A stretch of DNA of 64,000 bases from Crossiella cryophila (GTDB lineage Bacteria; Actinomycetota; Actinomycetes; Mycobacteriales; Pseudonocardiaceae): NCBI RefSeq assembly GCF_014204915.1, contig NZ_JACHMH010000001.1, positions 8,457,501 to 8,521,500 on the forward strand, read 5' to 3'. Positions 3,931 to 35,584 of the stretch are shown here, piece by piece (the stretch's first letter is position 1; every line of letters begins with the position of its first letter). The notes below the pieces were generated by a model that worked only from the letters and a program-made list of their open reading frames with translations, was not told the DNA's origin and searched no databases. The position numbers and the translations under genes are program-made.

Positions 3931-3943
3931 CCCGCCCGGTGCC

Positions 3944-7827: not shown

Positions 7828-7847
7828 GCGGGGTGCTCCGTCTCTTT

Positions 7848-10114: not shown

Positions 10115-10118
10115 GCGC

Positions 10119-10544
10119 TCAGCTCCTCGGGAGGTTGGCGGCGGCGGTCTCCCGTGGTGCCGAACTCAGGTAGACACCCACCTGTTTGACCAGGAGGTTC
10201 ATCTCGTAGGCGATCATGCCGACATCGGCGGTCTCCTCGGCCAGCAGCGCCAGGCAGGCGCCGCGTCCGGCCGCGGTGACGAAGAGGTAGGCGTGCTCCA
10301 TCTCGACGATGGTCTGGCGCACCGCGCCACCGCCGAAGTGCCTGCCGGTGCCGCGAGCCAGGCTCTGGAAGGCCGAGGCCATCGCGGACAGGTGCTCGGA
10401 GTCATCCTTGGACAGGTCCTGTGAACGGCCGATGAGCAGGCCGTCGGAGGAGAGCACGACCGCGTGCCGGACGCCGACGGTCCGCTGCACCAGCTCGTCC
10501 AGCAGCCAGTTCAGATCGGTGTTCCGAGAAGCCTTGTCGCTCAT
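10119..10544 (-). CDS. cvnB: CvnB-type roadblock/LC7 protein
   Basis: A 141-residue roadblock/LC7-domain protein, the likely regulator of the CvnD GTPase. It shows the typical opening NWLLDELVQRTVGVRHAVVL, then SSDGLLIGRS and a beta strand YLFVTAAGRGACLALL. It sits between cvnA (52-bp gap) and cvnC (4-bp gap) in a single transcription unit. Family and context agree closely. Confidence 0.93.
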   Translation of the reverse strand: MSDKASRNTDLNWLLDELVQRTVGVRHAVVLSSDGLLIGRSQDLSKDDSEHLSAMASAFQSLARGTGRHFGGGAVRQTIVEMEHAYLFVTAAGRGACLALLAEETADVGMIAYEMNLLVKQVGVYLSSAPRETAAANLPRS

Positions 10545-10596
10545 GCTGGGCTGACCTTCTTCGTCGAGGCCGCCTCGGGCGGGCGGCGGCCATTGA

Positions 10597-13209
10597 TCAT
10601 CCTGGGAATGGGTCTGCGTCGCGTCCCTCGCGGGTTCCGCGCTGGAAGGCGGCCATGGTGTCGCGGACCTGCTCGGCGGTGCGCCCGGTGGTGGCCGGGG
10701 CCTCGTTCTCGCCGGTGTCCTCGGTGCCGGAGTCGAGCAACTGCGGCGCCAGGTTCTGCTGCGGCCGGCGGACCGGCAGCTCAGGGCGCTCCCCAGTGGG
10801 GGTGTTGTGGGTGAGCAGTGGGGCGTGCGTGAGCAGCGCGCCGGGTCCGGTCTGCTCCAGGGACAGGCCCCCGGTGCGTTCGGCGGGCTGCTCCGGCTCG
10901 GGCGCGGGCTTGGGTTCCGGGGTCAGGTCCTCGTGCTCGAAGCGGTCCTCCGGCGCGGCGGGCCGCTCCTCCTTGATGGCGGCGAAGGTGGCGCCGCCGA
11001 GCAGGTTGATCGAGCGGCCGGGGGTGTCCTCGCCGTCGTTGAGCGGATCGGCCCAGAAGCTGTGCAGCTCCCGGCCGGGTCCGGCCGCGCGGTCGGACTC
11101 AGCCTCGCCCCGCTCGTCGTCGTCCACCTGGTCTGCTTCTGCCGCGCGCTGCTGGTGGACCGGTCCGAGCGGCGTGCGCACGGGTTTTCCCGAGCCGGTC
11201 GCCCGCTCCCGTTTGGTGAGTTCGCGCAGGGTGTCCTCGGAGAGCTGGGTGCGCACGTCCGAGGCGAGGATCTCGTTCGGCACCAGGATGACCGCCCTGG
11301 TGCCGCCGTAGGGCGAGTCGCGCAGTTCGACCCGCACACCCAGCCGCAGCGCGAGCCGGGCGACCACGAACAGGCCGAGCCGGGAGTCGCCCTTGAGCGC
11401 CATCGCGTCGAACTCCGGCGGGTTGGCCAGCATCGCGTTGGCGCGGTCCCGGTCCTCCTCGCTCATGCCGAGGCCGTGGTCCTCGACCTCGACCACGACG
11501 CCCTTGGCCGCGATCGAGCCGTGCACCTGCACCTGCGAGCGCGGCGGGGAGAAGGAGGTGGCGTTGTCCACCAGTTCGGCGACCAGGTGGATGGTGTCGG
11601 CCACCGCGGAGCCGATCACCGCGGCGTCCGGGATCCGCTGCAGCCGGACGCGGGCGTAGTGCTCGGTCTCGGAGATGGCCGCGCGCAGCACGTCGACCAG
11701 GCGGATCGGCTTGCGCCAGCGGCGGCCGGGCTGCTCGCCGCCGAGGATGATCAGGTTCTCCGCGTTGCGGCGGGCCCGGGTGGCGAGGTGGTCGAGCTGG
11801 AAGAGGCCCTCGATCTGCTCGGGGTCCTCCTCGTGCCGCTCCATCCGGTCCAGGATCTTGAGCTGGCGGTGCACCAGCGCCTGGTTGCGGTGCGCGATGC
11901 CGAGGAAGACGTTGTTGACGCCCTCGCGGGCCTGCGCCTCCTGCACGGCCGCGGCGACCGCGGTGAGCTGGGCGGCGTTGAAGGCGCGGGCCACCTGGCC
12001 GATCTCGTCCCGGCCGTAGTCGAGGTCGGGCACCTCGACGGAGACGTCCACCGGCTCGCCCTGGCGGAGGCGGCGGACGATGTCGGGCAGCCGTTCGTGC
12101 GCGAGGTGCAGGGCGTCCTTGCGCAGGCTGTCCAGGCGGACCACCAGCGCCCGGTCGACGAGTTTGCGGGACACCTTGAGCGCGACCATGATCGCCACGA
12201 TGGCCAGCACCAGGGCGACCAGCGAGCCGAGCAGGGCGTTGGTCAGCGAGTCGCCGCCGTCCTCCAGTGCCTGACCGGAGACCAGGTCGGCCTGCTGGAC
12301 GGTGAGCTTGGTCAGTTCGTCGGCCACGGCCACGGTCAGCCGCTGCCACTCGTCCTCGCTGATGCCGACCGCGCCGAGGCTGCCGCGACCGGTGCGGGCC
12401 ACCCACGGACCATTGCTGATCAGCGCGTTCTCGACCTCGGTGAGCCTTTTCCAGGAATCGCTGTCACGCAGCCTGCGATTACTGTCCTGCACTTCTTGGC
12501 GCGCAAAGGGGATTGTGCTCTCCAGCTCGGAGTGGTATGCGCTGACCAAGTTGGTGAACTCGAGGTGGTCGGTCGCCGGGAGAGCGCCGGTGGCGATCGC
12601 GCCGGCCATCAGCGAACCGGACCTGGACATGCGGTCGGCTGCCCGGAAAATTGCCGTCGCGCCGATAGCGCCCTGGGTGGACTTGACATCGGGCACGATA
12701 CGGGCCTGGGTGTCGAACAACTGGGCGGCGGAATGCAGCAGTCGGTTGTAGAAGGCGTAGACCTGCCCCTTGTCGATACCGGAGGACTCGATCCTGGTGC
12801 GAATCCGGGGTAGTTCCTCCAGCAGCGAGTTGAGCTGGTTGATGCGGTCGACCACCGCGGGCGGGGCGTTGTCCACCACCGGCGGCAGGGCTGCCTTCAT
12901 GACGCCGAGGGCTTCGTCGGTCTGCTGCTGGACCAGGCGCAACTCGGTCAGTCCTGTGGCGGGTTTGCCCAGGTAGACCATGCCGAGCTGACGTTCTTTC
13001 TGTGCCGAGGCGAGCGCGTTGACCGCGGGGATGGACACCGAGCGGACGCTCGAGGCGACCTCACGCAGGTAGTACCCGTCGAAGATCAGGTAGGACGAGC
13101 CGGACACCCACATGACGAGCAGGGCCACACTCGGGATCAGGACGGCGCCGGTCAGCCGTGTCCTGATCGACCGGTGGCTCTTCTGAGAACCGATTTCTTC
13201 CGAGCTCAC
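10597..13209 (-). CDS. cvnA: CvnA-type nitrate/nitrite-sensor-like histidine kinase
   Basis: An 870-residue membrane sensor at the head of the conservon. GTG 13209 is preferred because GGAG lies 4 nt upstream; a longer frame to 13257 exists. A first membrane helix (VLIPSVALLVMWVSG) precedes an extracytoplasmic NIT-type domain to about residue 310. A second helix (SLVALVLAIVAIMVALKV), a HAMP-like segment and an HATPase_c domain follow. The N-box reads ELVDNATSFSPP and the G-box DHGLGMS. The last 220 residues are Pro/Glu-rich and probably disordered. The phospho-acceptor segment (FLGIAHRNQALVHRQL) has His and is typical of Cvn kinases. About 570 bp upstream are gene-free and must hold the promoter. 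Confidence 0.92.
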   Translation of the reverse strand: MSSEEIGSQKSHRSIRTRLTGAVLIPSVALLVMWVSGSSYLIFDGYYLREVASSVRSVSIPAVNALASAQKERQLGMVYLGKPATGLTELRLVQQQTDEALGVMKAALPPVVDNAPPAVVDRINQLNSLLEELPRIRTRIESSGIDKGQVYAFYNRLLHSAAQLFDTQARIVPDVKSTQGAIGATAIFRAADRMSRSGSLMAGAIATGALPATDHLEFTNLVSAYHSELESTIPFARQEVQDSNRRLRDSDSWKRLTEVENALISNGPWVARTGRGSLGAVGISEDEWQRLTVAVADELTKLTVQQADLVSGQALEDGGDSLTNALLGSLVALVLAIVAIMVALKVSRKLVDRALVVRLDSLRKDALHLAHERLPDIVRRLRQGEPVDVSVEVPDLDYGRDEIGQVARAFNAAQLTAVAAAVQEAQAREGVNNVFLGIAHRNQALVHRQLKILDRMERHEEDPEQIEGLFQLDHLATRARRNAENLIILGGEQPGRRWRKPIRLVDVLRAAISETEHYARVRLQRIPDAAVIGSAVADTIHLVAELVDNATSFSPPRSQVQVHGSIAAKGVVVEVEDHGLGMSEEDRDRANAMLANPPEFDAMALKGDSRLGLFVVARLALRLGVRVELRDSPYGGTRAVILVPNEILASDVRTQLSEDTLRELTKRERATGSGKPVRTPLGPVHQQRAAEADQVDDDERGEAESDRAAGPGRELHSFWADPLNDGEDTPGRSINLLGGATFAAIKEERPAAPEDRFEHEDLTPEPKPAPEPEQPAERTGGLSLEQTGPGALLTHAPLLTHNTPTGERPELPVRRPQQNLAPQLLDSGTEDTGENEAPATTGRTAEQVRDTMAAFQRGTREGRDADPFPG

Positions 13210-13782
13210 GACGCTCCACTGCTTGTGAAAGACCACCCCGGGAAACCGCGGTGGCAATTCACCACGCCGCTATCCACCAGGGGAAGTTGGACCGGAGGGG
13301 ACGGTAACGAGTTCCTGGTTGAATACGACACCTTCCATACCGAGGAGTTCTCCCGCCCGAGCGCGGGGAGATTAACACGGACGCTGGCTTCGTTACCAGC
13401 CCCAACGAATGCGCATAAACACAGAAGACGCGAAACCATACCAGCGAGCCCTACCCGGAGCCCAGACCCGATTGGCGGGTATTGCACCCCTGGGTCCGTC
13501 ACCTGCGCTTTTTCCACACGTAACCTGGATCACTCCCGGTCATCGGACGACGTCGGCACGTGTCGATCATGCCCTAAGTCCCTCGGACGGCGGTCGCGCC
13601 CCGGCCACCGGCCGCACTAGCGCTCCCCTGCCCGCCGACGCCCGGTCGGGCAGTAGCACAATGCCCAACGGACGAGCGTGATCGCGGTCACGAAGCAAGA
13701 GAGAATCACGCACGGGTGTTCTCCACAGCCTTTCCGAATAAAACGTGAGCAGTTTTCAACTCTCTTTGCGAGGATCCGCCCC
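13210..13782. other. Divergent promoter region between cvnA and the VOC gene
   Basis: There are 573 bp with no convincing gene; short frames on both strands have random-looking translations. It includes a small inverted repeat, TTCGTT/AACGAA at 13389-13409. Promoters for the conservon operon and the VOC gene must lie here, but no clear -10/-35 pair could be assigned. Confidence 0.5.
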
Positions 13783-23829: not shown

Positions 23830-25571
23830 CCGGCGCCGGGCGGCAGATCCGCGCGGCCGGCGCAGCCGAGTTTGCGGTAGGCGCGGTGCAGGTGGTTGTT
23901 GATGGTGCGCACCGAGACGCCGAGCCGCAGCGCGATCTGCGGGTCGGTCAGCCCGGTCACGGCCAGCCGCACCACCTCGCTCTCCCTGGTGGACAGCGGT
24001 TCGTTCTGGGCCAGCAGCGCGAGTCCCGGCGTGCGGGCGCCGCTGTGCCGCACCGGCAGCATCCGGGCCCGGCGGATCGCGGCGGCGGCCTTGCGGGACT
24101 GCCCGGCCCGCTGGTGCAGGGCGGCGAGTTCGGCCAGGGCCTCCGCGCCGTAGAGCAGGGCGCCCGCGGTGAGGAACTGCTCGGCCACCGCGGCCAGCAG
24201 GTCGGCGTCCGCGGTGGCGATGGCGCGGCTGTAGTCCAGCCGGGCCCGCAGGTAGCCGTGCTGGCCGATGCTGTGCCAGAACGGGGCGGCGGAGCGGGCC
24301 AGGCCGAGGCGGCCGAGGGTGTGCGCGCGGGCGGCCCGGTCCCAGGTGGTGTCCTCGGCCTTGGCGCACAACAGGTCCCTGGCCTGGTCGAGATCGCCGC
24401 GGACGGCCGCGGCCCAGGCGCGGGCCACCGCGGTCGAGGCGGCCAGGTGCGCGGTGGCGGCTTCGGCCGGGGGCAGCGCACCGGCGGCCACCGCGGCCGG
24501 GTCGCCGAGCTGGGCGGCGGCGGCCAGGCGCAGGATGGCCCAGCGCGGATCGTCGTCGGGTAACAGGCACAGCAGGTCGTGGGCGCGGCGGATCTGCCCG
24601 TGCGCCAACAGCATCGAGGCCAGGATCACGCCGTGCCCGGACCGGTGCGCGGCATCGGCGGCGGCGAAGCGTTCCGTGGCCGCGGCCAGCGCCTCCTCGA
24701 TCCGCCCGGCGCACATCAGTCCGGTCACGTGGTCCTGATCGTCCTCAGTGGACGGTTCGGGCACCGGGGTGGCGCCCAGTGCCGCGCCGATCCCGGTGTG
24801 CGCCAGTTCGACCCGCCAGCCGGTCGGGGTCTCCACCGCGGTGATCAGTTCCTGTTCGGCCAGGATGATCAGGTCGTGCCGGTCGACCAGGCGCTCGAAC
24901 ACCGGCAGCGGCGCGAACCCGGTGGCCGCGATCAGGTCCAGGGCCTGCCGTTGCGCGGCGTCCAGTCCGGCCAGGCGCAGCTCGATCACCTCGGTCAGGG
25001 AACCGCCTTGGTCGGCAGGGTGATCCGCGGCCAGGTGCACCAGCTCGCGCAGTAGTCGCGGACTGCCTTGGGCGAGCTGGGCCAGTCGCCGGGCGGCCGG
25101 GTGGTCGCCGGTGAGCGCCCTGGCCAGCTCGATCATGTCGGTGGCGCCCAGTGGCGGCAGGTCGACCCGGCCGAGGTTCTCCCCCGGCCACAGTCCGTCC
25201 GGCCCGGCGGCGATCACCCGCACCAGGCCCTGGCGCACCAGTTCCAGGAGCAGTTCGGCGTCGGCCTCGGCCAGCAGGTGCGCGTCGTCGACCACCGCGA
25301 GCACCCTGGTGGCCGGGCCCAGCAGCACCGTGCACACCAGCGTGGACAGCCCGCGCCCGCCGATGATCGGCTCGATCCGGAACCCGTGGCCCTGCGCCCA
25401 GTCCGCGATCTCGGCCAGCACCCGGCTGCGCCCCACCCCGGACACGGCGACGCCGTCGATCCGCCGGTCCGTCAGCAGGGCGCGGATCCGGCCCAGTTCC
25501 GCGGTCCGGCCGAGGATGCCGACCGCCCGAGCGGGCAGCGGCCGGGGAATCCCCGGTGTGGTGGTGTTCAT
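23823..25571 (-). CDS. LuxR-type regulator with AAA-like ATPase region
   Basis: A 582-residue regulator resembling small LAL/MalT-type proteins. The N-terminal region has a P-loop-like GVAVSGVGRSRVLAEIA, but the Walker A Lys is Arg, and a Walker B-like VLAVVDDAHLL, so ATP hydrolysis may be lost. A helical repeat region of about 300 residues follows (for example AAATERFAAADAAHRSGHG). The C-terminal LuxR helix-turn-helix reads LSTRESEVVRLAVTGLTDPQ and VSVRTINNHLHRAYRKLG. ATG 25571 has GGAGGA upstream. A 34-bp perfect palindrome sits just ahead of the ribosome site. Neighbouring sugar genes suggest a carbohydrate role; this is inference. Confidence 0.85.
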   Translation of the reverse strand: MNTTTPGIPRPLPARAVGILGRTAELGRIRALLTDRRIDGVAVSGVGRSRVLAEIADWAQGHGFRIEPIIGGRGLSTLVCTVLLGPATRVLAVVDDAHLLAEADAELLLELVRQGLVRVIAAGPDGLWPGENLGRVDLPPLGATDMIELARALTGDHPAARRLAQLAQGSPRLLRELVHLAADHPADQGGSLTEVIELRLAGLDAAQRQALDLIAATGFAPLPVFERLVDRHDLIILAEQELITAVETPTGWRVELAHTGIGAALGATPVPEPSTEDDQDHVTGLMCAGRIEEALAAATERFAAADAAHRSGHGVILASMLLAHGQIRRAHDLLCLLPDDDPRWAILRLAAAAQLGDPAAVAAGALPPAEAATAHLAASTAVARAWAAAVRGDLDQARDLLCAKAEDTTWDRAARAHTLGRLGLARSAAPFWHSIGQHGYLRARLDYSRAIATADADLLAAVAEQFLTAGALLYGAEALAELAALHQRAGQSRKAAAAIRRARMLPVRHSGARTPGLALLAQNEPLSTRESEVVRLAVTGLTDPQIALRLGVSVRTINNHLHRAYRKLGCAGRADLPPGAGQ

Positions 25572-25581
25572 GGGTCCTCCA

Positions 25582-25615
25582 GGCAGGTTCAGGTAATGGA
25601 TTACCTGAACCTGCC
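25582..25615. promoter_or_regulatory. 34-bp perfect palindrome at the luxR-type leader
   Basis: Arms GGCAGGTTCAGGTAAT and ATTACCTGAACCTGCC are fully complementary around GG; two more C-G pairs follow after one mismatch. It begins 11 bp upstream of the start codon, next to the ribosome site. As DNA it is an operator candidate; as RNA a 16-bp stem that could control translation. Confidence 0.75.
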
Positions 25616-25631
25616 CGGCAAGTCGAGATCA

Positions 25632-25655
25632 GCCGATCGAACCTGTCCGATCGGC
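25632..25655 (-). terminator. Hairpin downstream of the GH13 gene
   Basis: GCCGATCG and CGATCGGC form a perfect 8-bp stem with an 8-nt loop, about 60 bp past the stop of the minus-strand sugar operon. No T-tract on that strand. It may instead belong to the luxR-type promoter region. Confidence 0.45.
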
Positions 25656-25715
25656 CCTGAGCAGGTGTTTTGGCATATGGTCGACTGGGCCGGACGCCGT
25701 TGTCCGACCACCTGG

Positions 25716-27374
25716 TCAGGCCAGCCAGATCGCAGTGTCCGGCGGCAGCTCGCCCGCCTCGGTCAGTCCGCCGCTGGCCAGCAGCACCCGCTCGTGCGCG
25801 GGCAGCGCGACCGGTTCGGCGGCCAGGTTGACCACGCAGGTGAAGCCGGGCGGGCGGTGGAAGGCCAGCACGTCGGCGCCGAGTTCCAGCCAGCGCATCG
25901 GGCCGTCACCGAGTGCGGGCAGCTCCCGGCGCAACCGCAGCGCCTCCCGGTAGAGCGCGTGCATCGAGGCCGGATCCTGTCGCTGCGCCTGGGCGGTGTG
26001 CCCGGACCACTCGGCGGGCTGCGGCAGCCAGGGCACCGAGCCCTCGGGTCCGAAGCCGAACGGGGCGGCCTGGCCGGACCAGGGCAGTGGCACCCGGCAG
26101 CCGTCCCGGCCGGGGTCCGCGCCCTGGGTGCGGGCGAACACCGGGTCCTCGCGCAGCTCGTCCGGCACGTCCTCGATCTCCCACAGCCCCAGCTCCTCCC
26201 CTTGGTACACATAGGCTCCGCCGGGCAGGGACAGGCTGAGCAGGGCGGCCGCGCGGGCCCGGCGGGCGCCGAGTTCACGGTCAACCGGGGTGCCGTGGCG
26301 GCGGTCGGCGAAGGTGAAGCCGGTGTCGCCTGGCCTGCCGTAGCGGGTGACGTGCCGGGTCACGTCGTGGTTGGACAGCACCCAGGTGGGCGGCGCGCCC
26401 ACCGGCGCGTGACTGTCCACTGTGGCCTGGATGACCGTCTTGAGTTGCCCGGCTTCCCAAGGGCAGGAAAGGAAATCGAAGTTGAACGCCGAGTGCAGCT
26501 CGTCCGGGCGCAGGTAGCGGGCGAAGCGCACCGGGTCGGGCAGCCACATCTCGCCGACGAAGATCCGGTCCTCGCCGTACTCCTGGGCGATCCGCCGCCA
26601 GGCCCGGTAGATCTCGTGCACGCCGTCGAGGTCGGAGAAGGGCAGTTGTCCGTTGGCCCCGGCCACATCGGGCAGTCCGGGCGCCTTGACCAGGCCGTCG
26701 GCCACGTCGATGCGCAGCCCGTCCACGCCGCGGTCGAACCAGAACCGGAGGATGTCGGCGAACTCCGCGTGCACCTCGGGGTTGGTCCAGTTGAGGTCGG
26801 GCTGCTCGGCGGCGTAGAGGTGCAGGTACCACTCACCCGGCCTGCCGTCGGCCTCGGTGACCCTGGTCCAGGCCGGTCCGCCGAAGCGGGACTGCCAGTC
26901 GTTCGGCGGTTCGGACCCGTCCGCGCCGCGGCCCGGCCGGAACCAGAACCGTTGCCGCGCGGGCGATCCCGGTTCGGCGGCCAGTGCCTCGGCGAACCAG
27001 GGATGCCGGTCCGAGCAGTGGTTGGGCACGATGTCGATGATGATCCGGATGCCCAGCCGGTGCGCCTGCTCGATGAACTCCTCGGCCTGGGCCAGGGTGC
27101 CGAAGACCGGTTCGATGTCCCGGTAGTCGGCCACGTCGTAGCCGCCGTCGGCCATCGGCGAGGGATACCAGGGGCTGAACCAGATCGCGTCGATGCCCAG
27201 TTCGGCCAGGTAGGGCAGCTTGGCCAGGGCCCCGGCGAGGTCGCCGACGCCGTCCCCGTCGCCGTCGGCGAAGCTGCGCAGGTAGACCTGGTAGATCGCC
27301 GCCCCGCGCCACCAGGACGTCCCTTGTCCGTCCACAGTGGACTGAGTTGCAGAGGTGCGCTCGGAGGAGATCAC
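25716..27374 (-). CDS. GH13 alpha-glucosidase (AglA-like)
   Basis: A 552-residue cytoplasmic family 13 glycosidase, expected to release glucose from alpha-glucosides brought in by the adjacent ABC importer. GTG 27374 has GGAAGG 7 nt upstream. GH13 regions are intact: DIVPNHCSDRHPWF (region I), GLRIDVADG with the nucleophile Asp, FVGEMWLP with the acid/base Glu, and VLSNHDVTRH with the stabilising Asp. The QPDLNWTNPEV segment is typical of oligo-1,6-glucosidase/alpha-glucosidases. There is no signal peptide. Last gene of a five-gene same-strand locus; order matches actinobacterial agl loci. Confidence 0.9.
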   Translation of the reverse strand: MISSERTSATQSTVDGQGTSWWRGAAIYQVYLRSFADGDGDGVGDLAGALAKLPYLAELGIDAIWFSPWYPSPMADGGYDVADYRDIEPVFGTLAQAEEFIEQAHRLGIRIIIDIVPNHCSDRHPWFAEALAAEPGSPARQRFWFRPGRGADGSEPPNDWQSRFGGPAWTRVTEADGRPGEWYLHLYAAEQPDLNWTNPEVHAEFADILRFWFDRGVDGLRIDVADGLVKAPGLPDVAGANGQLPFSDLDGVHEIYRAWRRIAQEYGEDRIFVGEMWLPDPVRFARYLRPDELHSAFNFDFLSCPWEAGQLKTVIQATVDSHAPVGAPPTWVLSNHDVTRHVTRYGRPGDTGFTFADRRHGTPVDRELGARRARAAALLSLSLPGGAYVYQGEELGLWEIEDVPDELREDPVFARTQGADPGRDGCRVPLPWSGQAAPFGFGPEGSVPWLPQPAEWSGHTAQAQRQDPASMHALYREALRLRRELPALGDGPMRWLELGADVLAFHRPPGFTCVVNLAAEPVALPAHERVLLASGGLTEAGELPPDTAIWLA

Positions 27375-27399
27375 GATGCCGCCTTCCGGAGAGGTGTGC

Positions 27400-28275
27400 T
27401 TAGCCCTTGAGGCTGCCGGCGGTCAGGCCGGCCAGGATCTGGCGTTGGAACACAAGGAAAACCAGGATCATCGGGATGCTGGCCAGCACCAGTCCCGCGG
27501 TGAGCACGTTGAGCGCGGTGTCCGGCGCGACCCGTTCCAGCGCGACGCTGAGCGTCTGCTCGTTGGGGTCGGAGAAGACCAGCAGCGGCCAGATGAAGTC
27601 CTTCCACGCGGTGACCAGCGCGACGATGGACACCACGGCCAGGATCGGCCGGGAGATCGGCAGCACGATGCTGATCAGCACCCGCACCGGTCCCGCGCCG
27701 TCCATCCTGGCCGCTTCCAGGAGTTCGCCGGGGATCTCGTCGAAGAACCGCTTGAGCAGGTAGATGTTGAACGCGCTGGCCGCCGCGGGCAGCCAGATGC
27801 CAGCCGGGTTGTTGAGCAGGTTCACCCCGAACAGCGGCACGTCGGCGATGGTCATGTAGGTCGGCACCAGCAGCGCCGAGGCGGGCAGCATCAGCGTGGC
27901 CAGCATCAGGCCGAGGATCACGTTGCCCAGCACCGGTCGCAGCTTGGACAGCGCGTAGGCGGCAGGCACGCACACCGCGAGCTGCACCAGCACCGCACCT
28001 CCGGCCACGATCAGCGTGTTGAGGAAGTACCGGCCCAGGTCCAGCTCCTGCCAGGCCTGCCAGAAGGTCTCCGGGAACCAGGTCTCGGGCACCACCGACG
28101 GCGGGGTCCTGGCCAGTTCCACCGGCGACTTCATCGCGCCGGTCACCGCCCAGTACAACGGGAAGACGAAGGCCAGCAGGAACAGCACCAGCACAACGCC
28201 GAACACGAGCCAGTACAAGGCTTTCCCGCGCGGGGAACGCAGTGCGGCCGGGGAGACCAGGGTGCGCGTGGACAT
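27400..28275 (-). CDS. ABC sugar transporter permease (MalG-type)
   Basis: A 291-residue inner-membrane permease with about six helices. ATG 28275 follows the upstream permease stop by 2 nt, so translation is coupled. The EAA loop that contacts the ATPase is LLEAARMDGAGPVRVLISI. The N-terminal helix ALYWLVFGVVLVLFLLAFVF and the final YLxxQRQILAGLTAGSLKG-like ending (VFQRQILAGLTAGSLKG) are hallmarks of MalG-type CUT1 permeases. No ATPase gene is nearby; CUT1 systems in actinomycetes commonly share the MsiK ATPase. Confidence 0.92.
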   Translation of the reverse strand: MSTRTLVSPAALRSPRGKALYWLVFGVVLVLFLLAFVFPLYWAVTGAMKSPVELARTPPSVVPETWFPETFWQAWQELDLGRYFLNTLIVAGGAVLVQLAVCVPAAYALSKLRPVLGNVILGLMLATLMLPASALLVPTYMTIADVPLFGVNLLNNPAGIWLPAAASAFNIYLLKRFFDEIPGELLEAARMDGAGPVRVLISIVLPISRPILAVVSIVALVTAWKDFIWPLLVFSDPNEQTLSVALERVAPDTALNVLTAGLVLASIPMILVFLVFQRQILAGLTAGSLKG

Positions 28276-28277
28276 GA

Positions 28278-29204
28278 TCAGCTCCTGGTCCTGGTCAGCC
28301 GCACATAGGTGGCGGAGAAGATGCCGAGCACCACGAACAGCAGCAGGCTCAGCGCGCTGGCCGTGCCGAAGTCGTTGTAGTAGAAGGCATAGCGGTAGAG
28401 CAGGAGCAGCAGCGTGACGGTGGCGTCCTCTGGTCCGCCGCCGGTCATCACATACGGTTCGGTGAACACCTGCATGGTCGCCACCACCTGCAACAGCAGC
28501 AGCACCAGCAGCACGAACCGGGTCTGCGGGATGGTGACGTGCACCAGTCGCCGCCACAGGTTCGCGCCGTCGAGTTCGGCCGCCTCGTACAGCTCGCCGG
28601 GGATGGTCTGCAGCGCGGCCAGGTAGATCAGCGTGGTGCTGCCCATGTTGGCCCAGGTGGAGACCAGCACCAGCGAGATCATCGCGGTGCTGCCGGAGTC
28701 CAGCCAGCTCAGTCCGGGCAGGCCGACCGCACGCAGGCCCTCGTTGAACAGGCCGGGTCCCGGGTTGTAGAACCACTTCCACAGCAACGCGGTCACCACC
28801 GGCGGCAACATCACCGGCAGGTACACCGCGACCCGGAAGAACGACCGCGCGTGCCGCAACTCGTTGAGCACCACCGCGGTCAGGAACGGCACCGCGAAAC
28901 CGAGCAGCAGCGCCAGACCGGTGAACAGCAGGGTGTTGCGCCAGGCCGCGCCGAAGAGCGGGTCGTTGAACAGCCGCTCGAAGTTCTCGAAACCGACCCA
29001 GCTGGGCGGGTTCACGAAGTCCACCTGCTGGAAGCTGAGCAGCACGCCGCGGATCAGCGGCCACCAGGAGAACAGCGCGAAGACCACCAGCGCGGCGGCG
29101 AGCAGGCCGTAGGCGGTGAGGTTCTCACCGAGCTTGCGGCGCCACCGGCCCTGCACCGGCGGCGCCACCTCACTCAGTTCACCTGAGCTGCGCGAGAACA
29201 CCAT
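28278..29204 (-). CDS. ABC sugar transporter permease (MalF-type)
   Basis: A 308-residue membrane permease with six predicted helices, first AYGLLAAALVVFALFSWWPL. The EAA motif reads LYEAAELDGANLWRRLVHVTI. The end YAFYYNDFGTASALSLLLFV is typical of MalF/UgpA-like CUT1 permeases. ATG 29204 overlaps the lipoprotein gene by 26 bp; a GTG at 29168, just past that stop, is an alternative start with a GAG-rich ribosome site. It works with the next permease and the lipoprotein to import an oligosaccharide. Confidence 0.92.
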   Translation of the reverse strand: MVFSRSSGELSEVAPPVQGRWRRKLGENLTAYGLLAAALVVFALFSWWPLIRGVLLSFQQVDFVNPPSWVGFENFERLFNDPLFGAAWRNTLLFTGLALLLGFAVPFLTAVVLNELRHARSFFRVAVYLPVMLPPVVTALLWKWFYNPGPGLFNEGLRAVGLPGLSWLDSGSTAMISLVLVSTWANMGSTTLIYLAALQTIPGELYEAAELDGANLWRRLVHVTIPQTRFVLLVLLLLQVVATMQVFTEPYVMTGGGPEDATVTLLLLLYRYAFYYNDFGTASALSLLLFVVLGIFSATYVRLTRTRS

Positions 29205-30540
29205 TGACCTTGGTTTCCGCCTCGGCGAGCACCTGGCCGATGTTGACGTCCTTGTTGGTCAGCACCGCCTGCATCACCGTGTCCAGCGCGGCGTAGACCT
29301 GCTGGGCGCTGGGCGGTTCCAGGTTGCCCTTCAGGCTGGGCGCGGCGGTGATGTAGGGCTGGTAGTTGGCCACCGGGATGGTCGCGTTGGCGGCCTTGAA
29401 CTTCTCCTGCTGCTCGCGCACCGGGCCGACCCAGACGTCGGCGGCTGGCGGCACGGGCAGGCCGATCGGCTGCTTCTGCTCGGCGTAGCGCTTGAGGTTG
29501 CCCTCGATCCGGGACGGGTCGAGGAACTTCCAGCGCAGCCAGGTCAGGCCGGCCTTGATCTTCTCCGGGGTGGCCTTGGGGCTGATCATGTAGCCCTCGC
29601 CGCCGATCAGCGTGCCCTGGCCGCCGGGCAGCGGGGCGAGGCCGTAGTCCTCGTACTTGCCGTTGAACTGGTTGACCAGCACCGGCACGTTGTCCGGGGC
29701 GGCGATGTACATGCCGAGCTGCCCCGCGCCCATCAGCCGCTGCAGGTCGGGGATCTCCAGGAGTTGCTTGCTGCCCATGGAGTCATCGGTCCAGCGCATG
29801 TCATGGAGGTGTTGCAGGGCGGCCTTGCCCTTGTCGTTGTTGAAGTCGGCCTTCCAGGTCTCGCCCTCCTGGCGGGCCACGCTGACGCCGAGGGAGTTGA
29901 GCCAGCTGGTCAGGTGCCAGCCGCCCTGGTTGTTCTTGCTCAGCTCACCGAAGCCGACCACACCGTTGCCCAGCGCGCTGATCTTCTTGGCGGCCTCGCG
30001 CACCTCGGCCCAGGTGGCCGGGGGCTTGGCCGGATCGAGGCCGGCCTTGCTGAACAGGGTGCGGTTGTAGAGCAGGCCCATCGAGTAGTTGGCGGTGGGC
30101 AGGCCGTACTGGCGGCCCTTGGCGTCCTTGAACACCTGGGTGAGCTGCGGGTTCAGCTCACCGGCCAGCGGCACGTCCTTGAGGTGGTCGGTGATGTCGG
30201 CGGCCTGGCGGCGGGCGATGATCTGCGCCGGGTCGGTGAGGTAGACGTAGAAGACGTCCTCGAGCTGGCCGCCGGAGAGCTTGGTGGCGAAGGTCTTCGG
30301 GTCCATGAAGCCTTCGCGCGGCTCGATGTCGATGTTCGGGTTGGCCGCCTCGAACGCGGCCACGTCCTCGTCGAAGATCTTGCGCTGGAAGGCCTGGGTG
30401 CCCGGCGGCTGGCCGTTGACGGAGATCTTGACCTTGCCGCCGGCCGCGGGCGCCGCGTCGCCGCCGCACCCGGCCATGGTCAGGCCGAGTCCGGCGACGA
30501 GCAGTACTCCGATGGCGCTGCGGGTACGAGGTCTCAGCAT
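29179..30540 (-). CDS. Sugar-binding lipoprotein of ABC importer
   Basis: A 453-residue extracellular solute-binding protein (family 1, CUT1). ATG 30540 has AGAGG 8 nt upstream. The signal sequence ends in the lipobox TMAGCGG, so Cys is lipidated and the protein stays membrane-anchored. The fold is supported by VAAFEAANPNIDIEPREG, YGLPTANYSMGLLYNRTLF, TWAEVREAAKKI and GLTWLRWKFLDPSRI. It is first of the transport genes downstream of the LacI regulator. Gene order suggests an alpha-glucoside such as maltose, trehalose or sucrose, but the ligand is not proven. Confidence 0.92.
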   Translation of the reverse strand: MLRPRTRSAIGVLLVAGLGLTMAGCGGDAAPAAGGKVKISVNGQPPGTQAFQRKIFDEDVAAFEAANPNIDIEPREGFMDPKTFATKLSGGQLEDVFYVYLTDPAQIIARRQAADITDHLKDVPLAGELNPQLTQVFKDAKGRQYGLPTANYSMGLLYNRTLFSKAGLDPAKPPATWAEVREAAKKISALGNGVVGFGELSKNNQGGWHLTSWLNSLGVSVARQEGETWKADFNNDKGKAALQHLHDMRWTDDSMGSKQLLEIPDLQRLMGAGQLGMYIAAPDNVPVLVNQFNGKYEDYGLAPLPGGQGTLIGGEGYMISPKATPEKIKAGLTWLRWKFLDPSRIEGNLKRYAEQKQPIGLPVPPAADVWVGPVREQQEKFKAANATIPVANYQPYITAAPSLKGNLEPPSAQQVYAALDTVMQAVLTNKDVNIGQVLAEAETKVNGVLAQLR

Positions 30541-30684
30541 CGCTCGTGCCTCTTCTCGGTGGGAGGTCGCTCCGGCGGGACCTGTGGCGCGGCTCACGAT
30601 AGGAGCCCAGCCCGCCGGAGTGCAATATCCCGATGAGATTAAGCAAGAAGTTGACTGATTCTCGTTATCTACTCGCGCACCCCG

Positions 30685-31695
30685 TCACTTCTCCGGTGCG
30701 GGCGCGGTGGAGCCGCGGACCACCAGTTCCGGCTCGAAGAGCAGCTCCTCCGCGGTGACCTCGGCGCCGTTGATCTGCGCCGCGAGCAGGTCCACCGCGG
30801 CCCGGCCCATGGCCTCGATGGGCTGGCGGATGGTGGTCAGCGGCGGGTCGGTGCAGTTCATGAACGCGGAGTCGTCGTAGCCGATGACCGAGACGTCCGA
30901 CGGTACCGCCATCCCACGCCGCCGCACCGCCCGGACGGTGCCCAGCGCGAGGGGGTCGGAGGCGCAGACGATGCCGGTGACGCCGCGTTCGATCAGCCGG
31001 GCGGCCGCGGCCTGGCCGCCTTCCAGGGAGAACATGGCGTGCCCGACCCATTCGGCGGGCACGGTGAGCCCGGCTTTGGCGGCCGAGGCGGTGAAGGCGG
31101 CGAGTTTGCGCCGGGAGGGCAGGTGGTCGGGCGGGCCGAGCACCATGCCGACCTTGGTGTGCCCGAGGGAGAGCAGGTGGGTCAGCGCCTGTTCGGCGGC
31201 GACGGCGTCGTCGCAGGAGACCCTGGGGAAGCCGAGTTCGTCGATGCCGGCGTTGACCAGCACGGTGGGCAGCTGGCGTTCGACCAGGCGGCGGTAGTGC
31301 TCGTGCGAGGCGTCGGCCTGGGCGTAGGAGCCGCCGGCGAAGAGCACCCCGGAGACGTGCTGGGCGAGCAGCAGTTCGACGTAGTCGGCCTCGGAGACCC
31401 CGCCAGCGGTGCGGGTGCACAGCACGGGGGTGAATCCCTGCTGGGCCAGCGCGTTGCCCATGATCTCGGCGAAGGCGGGGAAGATCGGGTTCTGCAGTTC
31501 GGGCAGCACCAGGCCGACCAGCCGGGCGCGTTCGCCGCGGAGCTGGGTGGGGCGCTCGTAGCCCAGCACGTCGAGTGCGGTGAGCACGGCGTTGCGGGTG
31601 GACTCGGAGACGCCGGGTTTGCCGTTGAGCACCCGGCTGACCGTCGCCTCACTCACCCCGACCTTGCGCGCCACCTCGGCGAGTCGTCGAGTCAT
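30685..31695 (-). CDS. LacI-family regulator of the alpha-glucoside locus
   Basis: A 336-residue repressor. ATG 31695 is chosen because the LacI helix-turn-helix follows directly (LAEVARKVGVSEATVSRVLNG, residues 6-26) and then the hinge region. No Shine-Dalgarno sequence is visible, so it may be leaderless. The periplasmic-binding-protein-like effector domain shows VGLVLPELQNPIFPAFAEIM, VSVIGYDDSAFMN and TTIRQPIEAMGR. It lies 144 bp upstream of the lipoprotein gene on the same strand. CTTGCA repeats just upstream resemble the sites used by MalR-like regulators in Streptomyces. Confidence 0.92.
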   Translation of the reverse strand: MTRRLAEVARKVGVSEATVSRVLNGKPGVSESTRNAVLTALDVLGYERPTQLRGERARLVGLVLPELQNPIFPAFAEIMGNALAQQGFTPVLCTRTAGGVSEADYVELLLAQHVSGVLFAGGSYAQADASHEHYRRLVERQLPTVLVNAGIDELGFPRVSCDDAVAAEQALTHLLSLGHTKVGMVLGPPDHLPSRRKLAAFTASAAKAGLTVPAEWVGHAMFSLEGGQAAAARLIERGVTGIVCASDPLALGTVRAVRRRGMAVPSDVSVIGYDDSAFMNCTDPPLTTIRQPIEAMGRAAVDLLAAQINGAEVTAEELLFEPELVVRGSTAPAPEK

Positions 31696-31709
31696 GAGGC
31701 AATGATGAC

Positions 31710-31754
31710 GCAAGCGAGCGCAAGATGCATACATTTCTTGCAGCAGGCTTGCAA
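31710..31754. promoter_or_regulatory. CTTGC repeat cluster upstream of lacI-type gene
   Basis: CTTGCAG (31737-31743) and CTTGCAA (31748-31754) are direct repeats one helical turn apart. GCAAG, the reverse complement of CTTGC, occurs at 31710-31714 and 31720-31724, again one turn apart. Directly repeated CTTGCAG motifs are known near Streptomyces maltose and amylase genes, so autoregulation is likely. Confidence 0.55.
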
Positions 31755-31805
31755 CGTGTCGGATCCGCTCCGCCGCGGCGGGTGCCCGTGCGAAGATCCC
31801 CGGCG

Positions 31806-32342
31806 ATGTCCGACAACAACAGCCGCCTGGCAATCACCCTGGCCGCCATCGGCGTGGTCGCCGCGGTCGTCTCCGCTTCCACGGATGTGTTCGGCCTGTT
31901 CAAGGACGAACCGGCGCCCTCGGGCAACCCCGGTGCCGCACCGGTGGGTGAGCCCGGTGGCGGTGCCCCACCGGCGACTCCGGCCGGGCCGAGGAAGGTG
32001 GACTGGCAGGGCACGCTGGTGCTCGACAGCAGTGGCCTCGACCTGGACACCACCCCGCCGACCCGCAAGCCCAAGGCCGAGGACTGGGACTTCTACTACG
32101 GCACGCCGCAGCTGATCACCTTCAGGGCCAGCTCGAAGAACCTGGCCCGCTGGACCGGGTCGCAGCCGCCCACCGCCGAGGAGTGCGGCCAGTTGCTGGC
32201 GGCCGAGTCGGTGCACAAGGCGAACATCGCCCAGGGCCACGTCTACTGCGCCCGGTCCGGACTCGGCCGACTCGCCCTGCTGAAGATCACCGGCCCCAAG
32301 GGCGACGGCCAGGGCGCCGAAGTGACGCTGTGGCATCCCTGA
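31806..32342 (+). CDS. Hypothetical membrane-anchored protein
   Basis: A 178-residue protein from ATG 31806. A single hydrophobic helix (RLAITLAAIGVVAAVVSAS) anchors it; a Pro/Gly linker of about 35 residues and an extracytoplasmic domain of about 110 residues follow. That domain has DWQGTLVLDSSGLDLDT, YGTPQLITF, two Cys (EECGQLL, HVYCARS) that could pair, and a final LLKITGPKGDGQGAEVTLWHP. This pattern is common in actinobacterial proteins of unknown role. The downstream nfi gene overlaps its end. Confidence 0.7.
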   Translation: MSDNNSRLAITLAAIGVVAAVVSASTDVFGLFKDEPAPSGNPGAAPVGEPGGGAPPATPAGPRKVDWQGTLVLDSSGLDLDTTPPTRKPKAEDWDFYYGTPQLITFRASSKNLARWTGSQPPTAEECGQLLAAESVHKANIAQGHVYCARSGLGRLALLKITGPKGDGQGAEVTLWHP

Positions 32343-32998
32343 TCCCACCCGCCACGGAGGCGGAGGCCCGCGCCATCCAGCAGGCCCTGCGCACCCAGGT
32401 CGACACCACCGGCCCCGGCCCACAGCGCCCGGCCACGGTCGCGGGCCTGGACGTCGCCTACGCCAAGGACGAGCGCACCCTGGCCGCCGCCGTGGTGCTG
32501 CTCGACTTCGCCACCCACGAGGTGCTCGCCGAGTCCACCGCCACCGGCGTGCCCGCCTTCGACTACATCCCCGGCCTGTTCGCCTTCCGCGAGCTGCCCA
32601 CCCTGCTCACCGCCCTGTCCCGCCTGCCGGCCACCCCGGACCTGCTGGTCGTCGACGGCCACGGCCTGGCCCACCCACACCGCTTCGGCCTGGCCTGCCA
32701 CCTGGGTGTGCTGACCGGGCTGCCGGTGTTCGGGGTGGGCAAGACGCGGCTGATCGGCACGGCGGCGGAACCGGGTCCGGACCGCGGCGCGCACAGCGAT
32801 CTGGTGGACGAGGGCGAGCTGGTGGGGCGGGTGCTGCGCACGCGGCCGGGGGTGAAACCGGTGTATGTCTCGGTGGGGCACCGGATCGACCTGGACACGG
32901 CCTGCGCGCACACGCTGGCGCTGACGCCGAGCTACCGGCTGCCGGAGACGACCCGCGCCGCCGATCAGGCCTGCCGCCGCGCGCTGGCCGCGGGCTGA
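32330..32998 (+). CDS. nfi: Endonuclease V
   Basis: A 222-residue endonuclease V. The enzyme cuts the second phosphodiester bond 3' of deaminated bases, mainly (deoxy)inosine, in DNA or RNA. Motifs are complete: TVAGLDVAY with the metal Asp, YIPGLFAFRELP with the wedge Pro-Gly and catalytic Glu, VDGHGLAHPHRFGLACHLGV with Asp and the His pair, and GVGKTRL. GTG 32330 overlaps the previous gene by 13 bp; the ribosome site is weak, so the exact start is uncertain. It is followed 23 bp later by the EVE-DUF3883 gene, also linked to altered bases. Confidence 0.9.
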   Translation: MASLIPPATEAEARAIQQALRTQVDTTGPGPQRPATVAGLDVAYAKDERTLAAAVVLLDFATHEVLAESTATGVPAFDYIPGLFAFRELPTLLTALSRLPATPDLLVVDGHGLAHPHRFGLACHLGVLTGLPVFGVGKTRLIGTAAEPGPDRGAHSDLVDEGELVGRVLRTRPGVKPVYVSVGHRIDLDTACAHTLALTPSYRLPETTRAADQACRRALAAG

Positions 32999-33021
32999 TC
33001 GCTTCTGACACACTCCTGATC

Positions 33022-33876
33022 ATGGGGGAGAACAAGAAAATCGGGGGCTGGCTGCTGTCCGGCAACCCCAAGCGCTTCAACGTCCCGGCGTTGCTCGCCG
33101 ACGAAACCCACCCGAAGCTGCTGCAGTGGTCGGTAGTGCGGGGTGCCAAGCCTGACTCCCGGGCCAACCGGATGCGGGCCGGGCAGCGGATCTTCCTCTG
33201 GCTCAGTGGCGACCAGGCGGGGCTGTGGGGTGCGGGCCACGTCACCGGCCTCGTCCAGTCGGGACCGCCACGAACCCATCAGCAGTACTGGGCGAACGCG
33301 GCCGAGCTGGCCAAGGCCAAGGCTTTTGTGCCGGTCGACCTGCCGATCTGGGAAACGCCGATCTCGCGGGACACCGTGCGTGCCTTCCCCGGACTGGACA
33401 AGCTCACCATCCTCAAACAGCCCTACGGGTCCAACCCGTTCGAGCTGACACCGGAACAGCTTGCCGCACTGGAGGATCTACTCAGCCTGCCACCCGGTCT
33501 GCCGCCGACCGGCTCAGGTGCGGGGTTCGGGTCCGCTGAGCTGAACCGGAAGGTCGAGTTGGCCGCGATGGCCGCGGTCACCGATTACTACGCGAAGCGG
33601 GGCGCGCGGGTCGAGGATGTCAGCCTGCACCGGCGCGGCTGGGACCTCGACTGTCACCTGGGCAACGGCGAGGTGCTGCGGGTCGAGGTCAAGGGCGTGC
33701 GTGGGGACCGTCCACGGTTCCTGTTAACCCGCAACGAGTTCGCCAAGGCGACCCGGCCGGATTGGCGACTCGCCGTGGTCACTGGAGCCCTGACCTCGCC
33801 GAAGGTCGCCATCCACCGGGGAGACCGGATCCGCGGGCTCGCTGACCCGATCCAGTACCAGGTCACGCTGCCTTGA
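33022..33876 (+). CDS. EVE domain fused to DUF3883 nuclease-like domain
   Basis: A 284-residue soluble protein. Residues of about 8-155 look like an EVE domain (PUA-like fold that binds modified bases): GGWLLSGNPKRFNV, QWSVVRGAKP, GQRIFLWLSGDQAGLWGAGHVTG. A Pro/Gly linker follows. Residues of about 180-284 match DUF3883, whose fold resembles PD-(D/E)xK nucleases: NRKVELAAMAAVTDYY, then GWDLDC, LRVEVKG, with D-ExK spacing of an active site, and FLLTRNEFAKA. EVE and nuclease fusions have been proposed to recognise and cut modified phage DNA. Nuclease activity here is inference. Its neighbour is endonuclease V, 23 bp upstream. Confidence 0.8.
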   Translation: MGENKKIGGWLLSGNPKRFNVPALLADETHPKLLQWSVVRGAKPDSRANRMRAGQRIFLWLSGDQAGLWGAGHVTGLVQSGPPRTHQQYWANAAELAKAKAFVPVDLPIWETPISRDTVRAFPGLDKLTILKQPYGSNPFELTPEQLAALEDLLSLPPGLPPTGSGAGFGSAELNRKVELAAMAAVTDYYAKRGARVEDVSLHRRGWDLDCHLGNGEVLRVEVKGVRGDRPRFLLTRNEFAKATRPDWRLAVVTGALTSPKVAIHRGDRIRGLADPIQYQVTLP

Positions 33877-33882
33877 GCTGAC

Positions 33883-34599
33883 CTAGGGCTTGCCGCGCCC
33901 GGTTCTCAGTTCCACCACGTTGGAGGCAGGCCCGTAGTAGAACGCGCGCACCCGGTAGGCCGCGGTCCGCTCCTCGGGCAGGGTCACCAGCCCGAAGGAG
34001 TTGATGTTCGGGTCCAGCAGGGCCGCGGTCGACCAGGCCGGCGCCGCACCCGCCTTCACCTCGACCGCGTAGTGCTCCTCGTCGGAGGCGTTGTCCCGCC
34101 AGGTGAACCGGATGCCCTGGCTGGTCATCACGGTCGCCTTGACCTCGGTGGGGGTGGCGGCGGATGCGTTGGCGCGCAAGGATTGCGTGCCCGCGGGCGC
34201 GCCGGGCAGGGTCTGTGGCACCGCCCACTCGTGCGGGTCCTCCTCCGGCTTGTCCCCCGGTTTCGGTTCGGGCAACGTCACCGACTGCTCGGGGGAGGCC
34301 GTGCCGTAGTAGGGCCGGAGGCGGTAGAAGAAGCGGGTTTCCGGGATCAGGTCGGGGTGCCGGTAGCTGGTCTCCTCGGGGGCGAGGAACTTCAGCACCG
34401 TGTACTCGCCGTTGGGTTCGTTGGCATACTCCAGCACCCGCCCGGCCACCGGCTGCCCGGTGTTCTCCCAGCGCAGCGTGACGTCCACCGGGGTGTCCAG
34501 TTTCCCGGACAGCGCGCCGCCAGGGGACGCGGATTCCGTTGCGGCACAGGCGGATAACAGCAGGGCCAGGACAGGCAGCACAGCGAGGGACTTGAGCAC
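33883..34599 (-). CDS. Lipoprotein with two fibronectin III-like domains
   Basis: A 238-residue exported lipoprotein. GTG 34599 is preferred because GAGG lies 6 nt upstream and the short signal peptide ends in the lipobox LLSACAA. The body appears to hold two FnIII-like beta sandwiches: DVTLRWENTGQPVAGRVLEY with YRHPDLIPETRFFYRLRPYY, and GIRFTWRDNASDEEHYAVEV with YRVRAFYYGPASNVVEL. Such proteins bind surfaces or polysaccharides; no enzymatic residues are evident. It converges on the EVE gene with a 6-bp gap. Confidence 0.75.
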   Translation of the reverse strand: MLKSLAVLPVLALLLSACAATESASPGGALSGKLDTPVDVTLRWENTGQPVAGRVLEYANEPNGEYTVLKFLAPEETSYRHPDLIPETRFFYRLRPYYGTASPEQSVTLPEPKPGDKPEEDPHEWAVPQTLPGAPAGTQSLRANASAATPTEVKATVMTSQGIRFTWRDNASDEEHYAVEVKAGAAPAWSTAALLDPNINSFGLVTLPEERTAAYRVRAFYYGPASNVVELRTGRGKP

Positions 34600-34691
34600 G
34601 GGGGACCTCGAGACAGGGCGGGGCACGCGGTCGTCCCGGCGCGCGAAACCGGGACGACCGCGTTGGTCAGGGCAGGGTCAGCGGCGCGGGA

Positions 34692-35294
34692 TCACTTGCG
34701 CCAGAAGCGGATTCCGCTCCACACCACGGTGGCGGGCCCCTGGCCGCTGCTGGTGCGGTAGGCGCCGAACTTGTCGTAGAAGCTGCCGCTGGGGCTGCTG
34801 TAGCTGTGTTTCTGGGAGCCGTTGATGTAGGTGCGGTGCTGGCTGCCGACCTGGTGCACGGTGTTGACCCGCACGGTCGCGCCGACGGTGGCGCCGGTGG
34901 CGACTGTCGCGCCGCCGTGCACCGCGTAGAGCCTGCCGCCGCGTTCGACGGCCAGCATGAAGAACGGTCCGGCCGAGGGCCCGTCCTGGAAGGTCTGCTT
35001 CAGCGAGATCCGGGTGCCGCCCATGCTCTGGATCCGGAACGACCCCTCGAACTGGTAGGTGCCGCCGCCGTAGGTGTCATACCTGCGTTCGGCGCGCTGG
35101 TCGCCGCTGGCGGTGGAACAGGTCAGGGTGAAGGTCAGGTTGTTGACCTGGCCGCAGCCGCGCTCCTGCACGTTGAAGCCAGGGGAACGCGACGTCCAGC
35201 CACCGCCCTCGACCTGGGCCTGCGCGGCAGGGGCGGTGAGCACGAGCCCACCCAGCAACGCGATCCCAGCGAGGACACGGTGTTTTCTCGGCAT
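34692..35294 (-). CDS. Secreted polysaccharide-lyase-like protein (PL7-type fold)
   Basis: A 200-residue exported protein. ATG 35294 has GGAGG 5 nt upstream; the signal peptide ends AAQAQ. The rest is a single beta-jelly-roll. Three segments recall PL7 alginate lyases: RAERRYDT near the RxExR position, ISLKQTF near QIH, and YDKFGAYRT near YFKAGVY. The Gln-Ile-His catalytic set is not intact, so it could be a lyase with another substrate (glucuronan, for example) or a lectin-like protein. A CcpA/LacI-type AAGCGCTT box lies upstream. Confidence 0.55.
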   Translation of the reverse strand: MPRKHRVLAGIALLGGLVLTAPAAQAQVEGGGWTSRSPGFNVQERGCGQVNNLTFTLTCSTASGDQRAERRYDTYGGGTYQFEGSFRIQSMGGTRISLKQTFQDGPSAGPFFMLAVERGGRLYAVHGGATVATGATVGATVRVNTVHQVGSQHRTYINGSQKHSYSSPSGSFYDKFGAYRTSSGQGPATVVWSGIRFWRK

Positions 35295-35364
35295 TCCAAC
35301 CTCCAGGAAAAGGCGCAGCGAGAAAACAAATGCCGACGTTTGCAGGGGCCGGCATCCGTTACTC

Positions 35365-35376
35365 GAAAGCGCTTAC
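35365..35376. promoter_or_regulatory. LacI/CcpA-like operator upstream of the PL7-like gene
   Basis: GAAAGCGCTTAC contains the palindrome AAGCGCTT, the core of many LacI-family operators. It is about 70 bp upstream of the minus-strand start at 35294. Confidence 0.5.
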
Positions 35377-35584
35377 AGGTTGGCGGGGTGAAGCCACATT
35401 AGGACACGATCGGGGGTCCGACAAGACTTTCACATATGCGACCGGAAGTGCGGCCGAGAACGCCTAGTGACGCGGGCTGGCGAAACTCCACAACGGCCAC
35501 TCGTCCACAACCGTGAACCGCATCGAGCACAGACAGAAGAGCGCAGACGCCCGCCCCGGATGCCTCGCCGTCACTTCTGACCGG

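Follow-up and report, generated by a model that had tools for sequence, protein, structure and literature searches.

A predicted one-gene, modification-dependent restriction enzyme with EVE and NOV_C/DUF3883 domains in Crossiella cryophila

We analysed a stretch of 64,000 nucleotides from Crossiella cryophila, referred to here as the window, which contains a gene joining an EVE domain to a NOV_C/DUF3883 domain. The gene lies between nfi, which encodes endonuclease V, and a convergent gene. The features of the locus, in window coordinates, are as follows:

33022..33876, + strand: EVE-NOV_C (EVE-DUF3883) gene, 284 aa (open reading frame and domain matches; full-length homologues exist)
33049..33474, + strand: EVE domain, predicted modified-base reader, residues 10-151 (Pfam PF01878; solved EVE structures 2ar1 and 2eve)
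33127..33129, + strand: W36, EVE pocket, aligned with 2eve W26 (alignment reading with PMC7897488; invariant)
33289..33291, + strand: W90, EVE pocket, aligned with 2eve Y82 and VcaM4I W82 (alignment reading with PMC7897488; invariant)
33490..33522, + strand: interdomain linker of low confidence, residues 157-167 (pLDDT < 50 in the model)
33553..33810, + strand: NOV_C/DUF3883 domain, predicted PD-(D/E)XK nuclease, residues 178-263 (Pfam PF13020; model topology)
33556..33558, + strand: E179, in helix 1 (19/19 chosen NOV_C rows)
33643..33645, + strand: D208 of GWD, immediately ahead of strand 2 (19/19 rows; model)
33685..33693, + strand: E222-V-K224, forming the ExK motif of strand 3 (19/19 rows; model)
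32995..33883, no strand: insertion of about 889 bp holding the EVE-NOV_C gene only (not at this site in any of four same-genus genomes)
32330..32998, + strand: nfi, endonuclease V, upstream neighbour (E 1.8e-68; genus-wide; outside the system)
33883..34599, - strand: convergent neighbour with a sub-threshold fn3 match (adjoins nfi in relatives; outside the system)

The coordinates, strand and length of the gene and its 23-bp spacing after nfi agree with the first-pass annotation, and the GWDLDC and LRVEVKG motifs that it had picked out are both present. The two domains it had named both score above the curated Pfam cut-offs: EVE at residues 10-151 with 29.2 bits against a cut-off of 23 (E 1.1e-6), and NOV_C/DUF3883 at residues 178-263 with 42.7 bits against 22.1 (E 5.9e-11). 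We take NOV_C and DUF3883 to be one family, which agrees with the annotation of the plasmid matches described below. Up to E 1, no HNH domain was matched in the protein by Pfam, which sets it apart from EVE-HNH proteins of the VcaM4I type, and NCBIfam gave no match at all. In PADLOC, the C-terminal part partially matched the last part of the TmtA and HmaA models (best E 7.9e-7 and 1.6e-6). The host genome (10.06 Mb, one contig) contains a single NOV_C match and no second full match to the window protein, with one weak additional match at E 0.28.

When the window protein by itself was compared with solved structures, 2ar1 was matched at E 1.2; a profile of six fusions, the window protein and five relatives described below, matched the EVE proteins 2ar1 (E 7.7e-7) and 2eve (E 1e-4). 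W36 and W90 are invariant in the alignment of the six open-frame fusions and also in nine chosen EVE rows, five of which are stand-alone proteins. In VcaM4I, W82 is described as a wall of the pocket that holds a flipped 5mC or 5hmC (PMC7897488). Pfam missed the EVE domain in two of the relatives (L028 and L029), where the assignment rests on alignment, and a third (L036) lay outside the Pfam scan. The window protein thus carries an EVE-family domain, for which we predict the reading of modified bases.

The C-terminal domain was examined in the same way. E179, D208, E222 and K224 are invariant in the alignment of the six fusions, whose frames were rechecked. We then compared 19 NOV_C rows chosen by hand from the loci that were read, comprising fusions, one helicase tail and other architectures, with a decayed copy (L034) excluded. 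E179, D208, E222, K224 and E239 are identical in all 19 rows and N238 in 18 of them, so that the D and ExK residues to which the first-pass annotation had tied its nuclease assignment are present in every chosen intact row. An AlphaFold2 model, built from 11 aligned rows of which seven reach the C-terminal domain, had a mean pLDDT of 83.2 and a pTM of 0.59 and showed two folded domains joined by the low-confidence linker; ten-residue blocks from residue 171 onward had pLDDT values of 81-97. The modelled C-terminal domain consists of a helix (172-192), strands at 196-199, 209-212 and 218-226, a short strand at 232-234, a helix (237-242) and a strand at 248-254. E179 lies in the first helix, D208 just ahead of the second strand and E222 and K224 in the third strand. 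PD-(D/E)XK nucleases have an acidic residue in helix 1, a D at strand 2 and (D/E)xK in strand 3 of an alpha-beta-beta-beta-alpha-beta core, and the C-terminal domain as modelled has this classical layout.

Sequence comparison contributed less. A NOV_C profile gave only chance-level matches to solved structures, none of them significant, and weak matches were obtained to REase_AHJR-like (best E 0.0032, in one of nine rows) and to PDDEXK_5 (E 0.0081 in L086, below the cut-off). DUF3883 is found as an end domain in defence helicases and also in proteins that are small and uncharacterised; it has been called a novel REase domain (PMC3710099) and presumably a group of type II REases (PMC10609329). 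The literature searched, in which DUF3883 papers were covered in small part, contained no direct biochemistry of the isolated domain. We place the domain in the PD-(D/E)XK superfamily because of the model layout, the weak sequence matches and the literature; its catalytic-type residues are intact, and its identity as a nuclease is predicted from layout and literature.

The strongest argument for NOV_C as the cutting part comes from what appears to be a nuclease swap. The fusion of Pseudonocardia humida (L028) consists of a ScoMcrA head, EVE and NOV_C, the head matching 5zmm residues 9-93 at E 1e-8; the term head is that used for the N-terminal region of ScoMcrA (PMC7461809). A protein from the same bacterial family (L016) has the same head (stretch E 9.6e-18), followed by EVE (23 bits, at the Pfam cut-off) and an HNH domain that resembles TagI (6ghs, E 1e-34). 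As judged from sequence, head-EVE-HNH and head-EVE-NOV_C differ in the nuclease slot, and because NOV_C and the TagI-like HNH share this one slot after head-EVE, NOV_C is the predicted cutting part. It is quite unlikely that the window protein is instead a non-cutting, modification-dependent binder, such as a regulator or adaptor with a structural NOV_C domain. We know of no nuclease activity in the plant protein that gives the NOV_C domain its name, and activity data were not found for any of the six fusions, both of which would suit a binder. Against it, the four catalytic-type residues are identical in all 19 chosen rows, more than a purely structural role would call for. In the decayed copy only D of the four is kept, and ExK is lost; this broken EVE-NOV_C gene of Micromonospora gifhornensis (L034:7898-8749) has its pieces in two frames.

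NOV_C and EVE each occur with other partners. The partners of DUF3883 include the classical EVE domain, head-EVE and other N-terminal domains that are PUA-like by eye. L013 is an EVE-HNH protein, and L011, L007, L015 and L020 combine EVE with a different C-terminal domain carrying a recurring D...IEAKA, PD-(D/E)XK-like by eye; in L011 and L015 this part has no Pfam name. Four NOV_C proteins, three on IMG/VR contigs (L083, L084 and L086) and one on a Pseudomonas plasmid (L027), seem by eye to share an N-terminal region with a GWYENAT-like stretch, which has no Pfam name in L083 and L086 and is possibly another reader domain. L085 and L089 are EVE-like by eye only and L008 weakly so (E 0.054), and L010 begins with a part that resembles SRA/ScoMcrA to the eye, at a non-significant E of 0.3. 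Two close NOV_C relatives, on a Pimelobacter plasmid (L025) and in G1182 (L088), have an N-terminal part without a recognised base reader.

The full fusion was found in open frame in five other loci: L028 (G710), L029, from a Nocardiaceae MAG, L035 (G815), L036 (G829) and L037 (G1002). The frames were rechecked, and the proteins are 35-40% identical to the window protein. Between L035 and L036, dS is 0.763 and dN is 0.123 over 278 codons, and the resulting dN/dS of about 0.16 indicates purifying selection. This value, together with the recurrence in five other loci, confirms at the level of sequence that the EVE-NOV_C reading frame is a real gene and beyond chance. The fusion is nevertheless rare as far as the searches reach. 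Counting the window's own, full-length matches were present in at least 2 of 390 genomes of the same family, at least 4 of 348 of the order, at least 1 of 394 of the class and at least 1 of 396 of the phylum, and in 1 of the 60 nearest relatives; the samples overlap, and the four larger searches scored no more than six candidates in each genome, so that the counts are lower bounds.

Searches of mobile DNA returned parts of the protein. Among 72,556 plasmid records, 13 matched the window protein, in the NOV_C part only and none over 80% of the query (three of the 13 were fetched for reading). The L029 protein matched 12 plasmid records, again none with 80%, and one of these, a Rhodococcus plasmid, matched through the EVE part. 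Phage records had no match to the window protein at E 1e-3. A contig pattern scan with the single window protein gave 38 pattern matches of which none was confirmed, and viral contigs searched with an EVE-rich alignment gave 53, also with none confirmed. With a NOV_C alignment, 4 of 41 viral matches were confirmed; none of the viral NOV_C proteins scanned (L083, L085 and L086) was an EVE fusion by Pfam.

We asked whether the six fusions descend from one, using an EVE tree of 35 rows picked from the loci at hand and a NOV_C tree of 19 rows. Three changes of fusion label are needed in each tree, and the fusions lie on one side of a branch in 0% (EVE) and 2% (NOV_C) of bootstrap trees. The window EVE forms a long branch among EVE domains that belong to HNH fusions and to fusions of other kinds, away from the other five (94/78, weakly supported in an unsettled tree). 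Because it groups apart and the six are together in 0% of 200 EVE bootstrap trees, the fusions may have separate origins; the well-supported branches of both trees are compatible with one origin.

Gene calls at the other fusion loci were made with a crude codon-usage script. In G829 (L065) and G1002 (L066), the fusion sits in a variable stretch between conserved flanks. One flank encodes BREX PglX (PADLOC PDLC02529, 1643 and 841 bits); the L066 copy is without its first half, probably because the stretch ends there. On the opposite flank L066 has a GmrSD_N gene, whose counterpart in L065 runs off the end of the stretch and gave no Pfam match of its own. One called gene separates the L029 fusion from a type ISP enzyme, which combines Mrr_cat_2, helicase, methylase and specificity domains, and the L028 fusion is close to a TIR-domain protein and to an apparent IS3-type transposase, identified by eye. 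No recognised defence gene was among those scanned in G815 (L064). A recognised defence-type gene thus lies within about 6 kb of four of the five other fusions, which gives an impression of enrichment rather than a measure of it. The decayed L034 copy adjoins an Mrr_cat gene, with a PLD-domain gene (ZacB match in PADLOC) about 1.4 kb off.

These surroundings bear on whether the substrate is RNA. The EVE domain could read a modified base in tRNA or phage mRNA, with NOV_C cutting RNA or nearby DNA: binding to modified bases of tRNA and other RNAs has been predicted for EVE proteins that evolve slowly (PMC7641849), and stand-alone EVE frames are common among the matches in these actinobacteria, where they outnumber the fusions. 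We consider an RNA-directed effector very unlikely, as the PD-(D/E)XK layout of the model and the restriction-modification and BREX surroundings of the relatives both point to DNA and the L016 protein with the shared head has a TagI-type HNH.

The window copy itself lies outside a defence island. None of ten scanned neighbours matched PADLOC at E 1e-5, and by Pfam these genes are transport, regulator, P450, PLC-like, fn3-like or unnamed. The Pfam and PADLOC scan covered the ten neighbours and nfi, and the remaining window genes were read by eye. A sugar uptake and use cluster (25716-31674, - strand) includes a permease, a binding protein and a LacI-type regulator by Pfam and a glycosidase and second permease by eye, and is collinear in same-genus genomes. 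Further off (9133-13236, - strand), a row of sensor kinase, roadblock, DUF742 and GTPase-like genes looks conservon-like by eye. No methyltransferase was detected by Pfam among the ten neighbours or in nfi, and the insertion holds one gene. As is required of a type IV enzyme, the protein appears to be encoded without a cognate methyltransferase alongside.

Comparison with same-genus genomes showed how the gene is placed. In the closest of them (95-96% identical), positions 1-7437 and 7439-9011 are collinear with window positions 25545-32994 and 33884-35456, which puts the insertion behind the nfi stop codon, between the end of nfi and the convergent gene. The site is likewise empty in two further genomes of the genus, and the fourth, which is more distant, carries about 60 bases at this place. 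Among eleven genes whose GC3 was compared, the inserted one ranks last, with 0.849 against 0.888-0.966 for the others. Spread by an obvious transposon was considered and rejected: the insertion has one reading frame of such length and no transposase. A 5-base GCTGA near both edges, seen by eye, is too short to weigh, and a simple edge-to-edge comparison found 5-6-base matches only.

The first-pass annotation had proposed that the fusion and endonuclease V make up a small altered-base module, whose adjacency it meant to have checked across genomes. Such a pair could act in repair, on deaminated host DNA containing inosine or uracil, and besides the position of nfi 23 bp away on the same strand, the fusion of G815 has a gene of the uracil-DNA-glycosylase superfamily nearby (L064:6023-6745, - strand; E 8.3e-12), on its own strand and with two called genes between. 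This is the sole hint of base repair among the five other fusion loci, a link in one of six loci overall. At E 1e-5 the fusion is absent from all four other genomes of the genus, each of which has nfi, no recognisable nfi occurs near the fusion in any of the five other loci (13-20 kb stretches), and the insertion consists of a single gene. The adjacency is therefore not stable, the nfi neighbour is best read, from these comparisons, as an accident of insertion, and a repair module is highly improbable. Read-through from nfi may aid expression of the fusion.

Taken together, we think it likely that the window gene by itself encodes a type IV (modification-dependent) restriction enzyme that works independently of NTP. 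The first-pass annotation had suggested that one protein could read altered bases and cut, and this part of its proposal is well supported by the conserved residues, the predicted topology, the nuclease swap and the defence surroundings of four of the five relatives; the part that enlisted endonuclease V was not borne out. The modified base, most likely one derived from cytosine, would be flipped by the N-terminal EVE domain into a pocket of aromatic residues, W36 and W90 among them, and the C-terminal DUF3883 domain, a predicted PD-(D/E)XK nuclease with E179, D208, E222 and K224 at the metal site, would cut the DNA nearby, probably as a dimer. Most likely, this single small protein serves in defence against phages whose DNA is modified.

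The host's own DNA may limit what the enzyme can read. Matches to C5-cytosine methyltransferases were found in eight of nine genomes checked, including the fusion-bearing G000, G710, G815, G829 and G1002; the C5-methyltransferase-like region of the host genome was inspected roughly. Given such a sequence in the host, plain dependence on 5mC could be self-toxic, and if the host carries 5mC, the enzyme would need either a limit set by context or a different target. The least probable reading, that the protein is a nuclease against DNA that is unmodified or of odd structure, in which EVE inhibits or reads sequence, could draw on this host sequence and on VcaM4I, which without its EVE domain and linker becomes a non-specific, toxic nuclease, so that EVE can also gate (PMC7897488), but the base-pocket tryptophans are invariant in the aligned rows.

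A broader form of the restriction-enzyme reading is tentative, and we regard it as rather unlikely: DUF3883 would be a general plug-in nuclease for modified-base readers, and its EVE form would travel as a bare single gene without a recognisable mobile element, and the modification that it reads in phages may be one other than 5mC, for example a hypermodified pyrimidine. Such a modification comes into question because C5-methyltransferase-like sequence is present in all five fusion-bearing genomes checked. A protein of 284 aa with its own predicted base reader is a handy object for testing DUF3883 cutting and what triggers it, and the window protein could become a reagent among modification-dependent enzymes.

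Several known systems resemble the predicted enzyme. Type-1 BREX-related helicases have an active C-terminal PD-(D/E)XK nuclease, and this effector has known antiphage activity (PMC12839542). The C-terminal end of the PADLOC model of HmaA, the helicase-nuclease of this type, matches NOV_C, and we therefore infer that the nuclease of these helicases is NOV_C; HmaA differs from the window protein in its fusion to a Swi2/Snf2 helicase and in working with a methyltransferase and an ATPase. ScoMcrA consists of head, SBD, SRA and HNH (PMC7461809), and its order of head, reader and nuclease, also seen in L016, is shared through the head with the L028 fusion and not with the window protein, which is without a head domain. 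VcaM4I, an EVE-HNH enzyme that flips 5mC and 5hmC and was tested in a T4gt plaque assay (PMC7897488), is closer in plan: both proteins have an N-terminal EVE and a C-terminal nuclease, which in the window protein is predicted, and of the VcaM4I pocket residues W82, P24 and Y130 the one mapped here, W82, corresponds to W90 by alignment reading. The two differ in that VcaM4I has HNH where the window protein has NOV_C. In the literature searched, no paper paired 'EVE domain' with 'DUF3883' or with 'endonuclease V'. EVE-PD(D/E)XK proteins are a published class, described among putative type IV enzymes by Bell, Wolf and Koonin (2020; PMC7641849) in a main text that does not name DUF3883 or NOV_C. 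By that description they share with the window protein a predicted EVE reader and a predicted PD-(D/E)XK nuclease, and the window protein would be a further example of such a reader-plus-nuclease enzyme.
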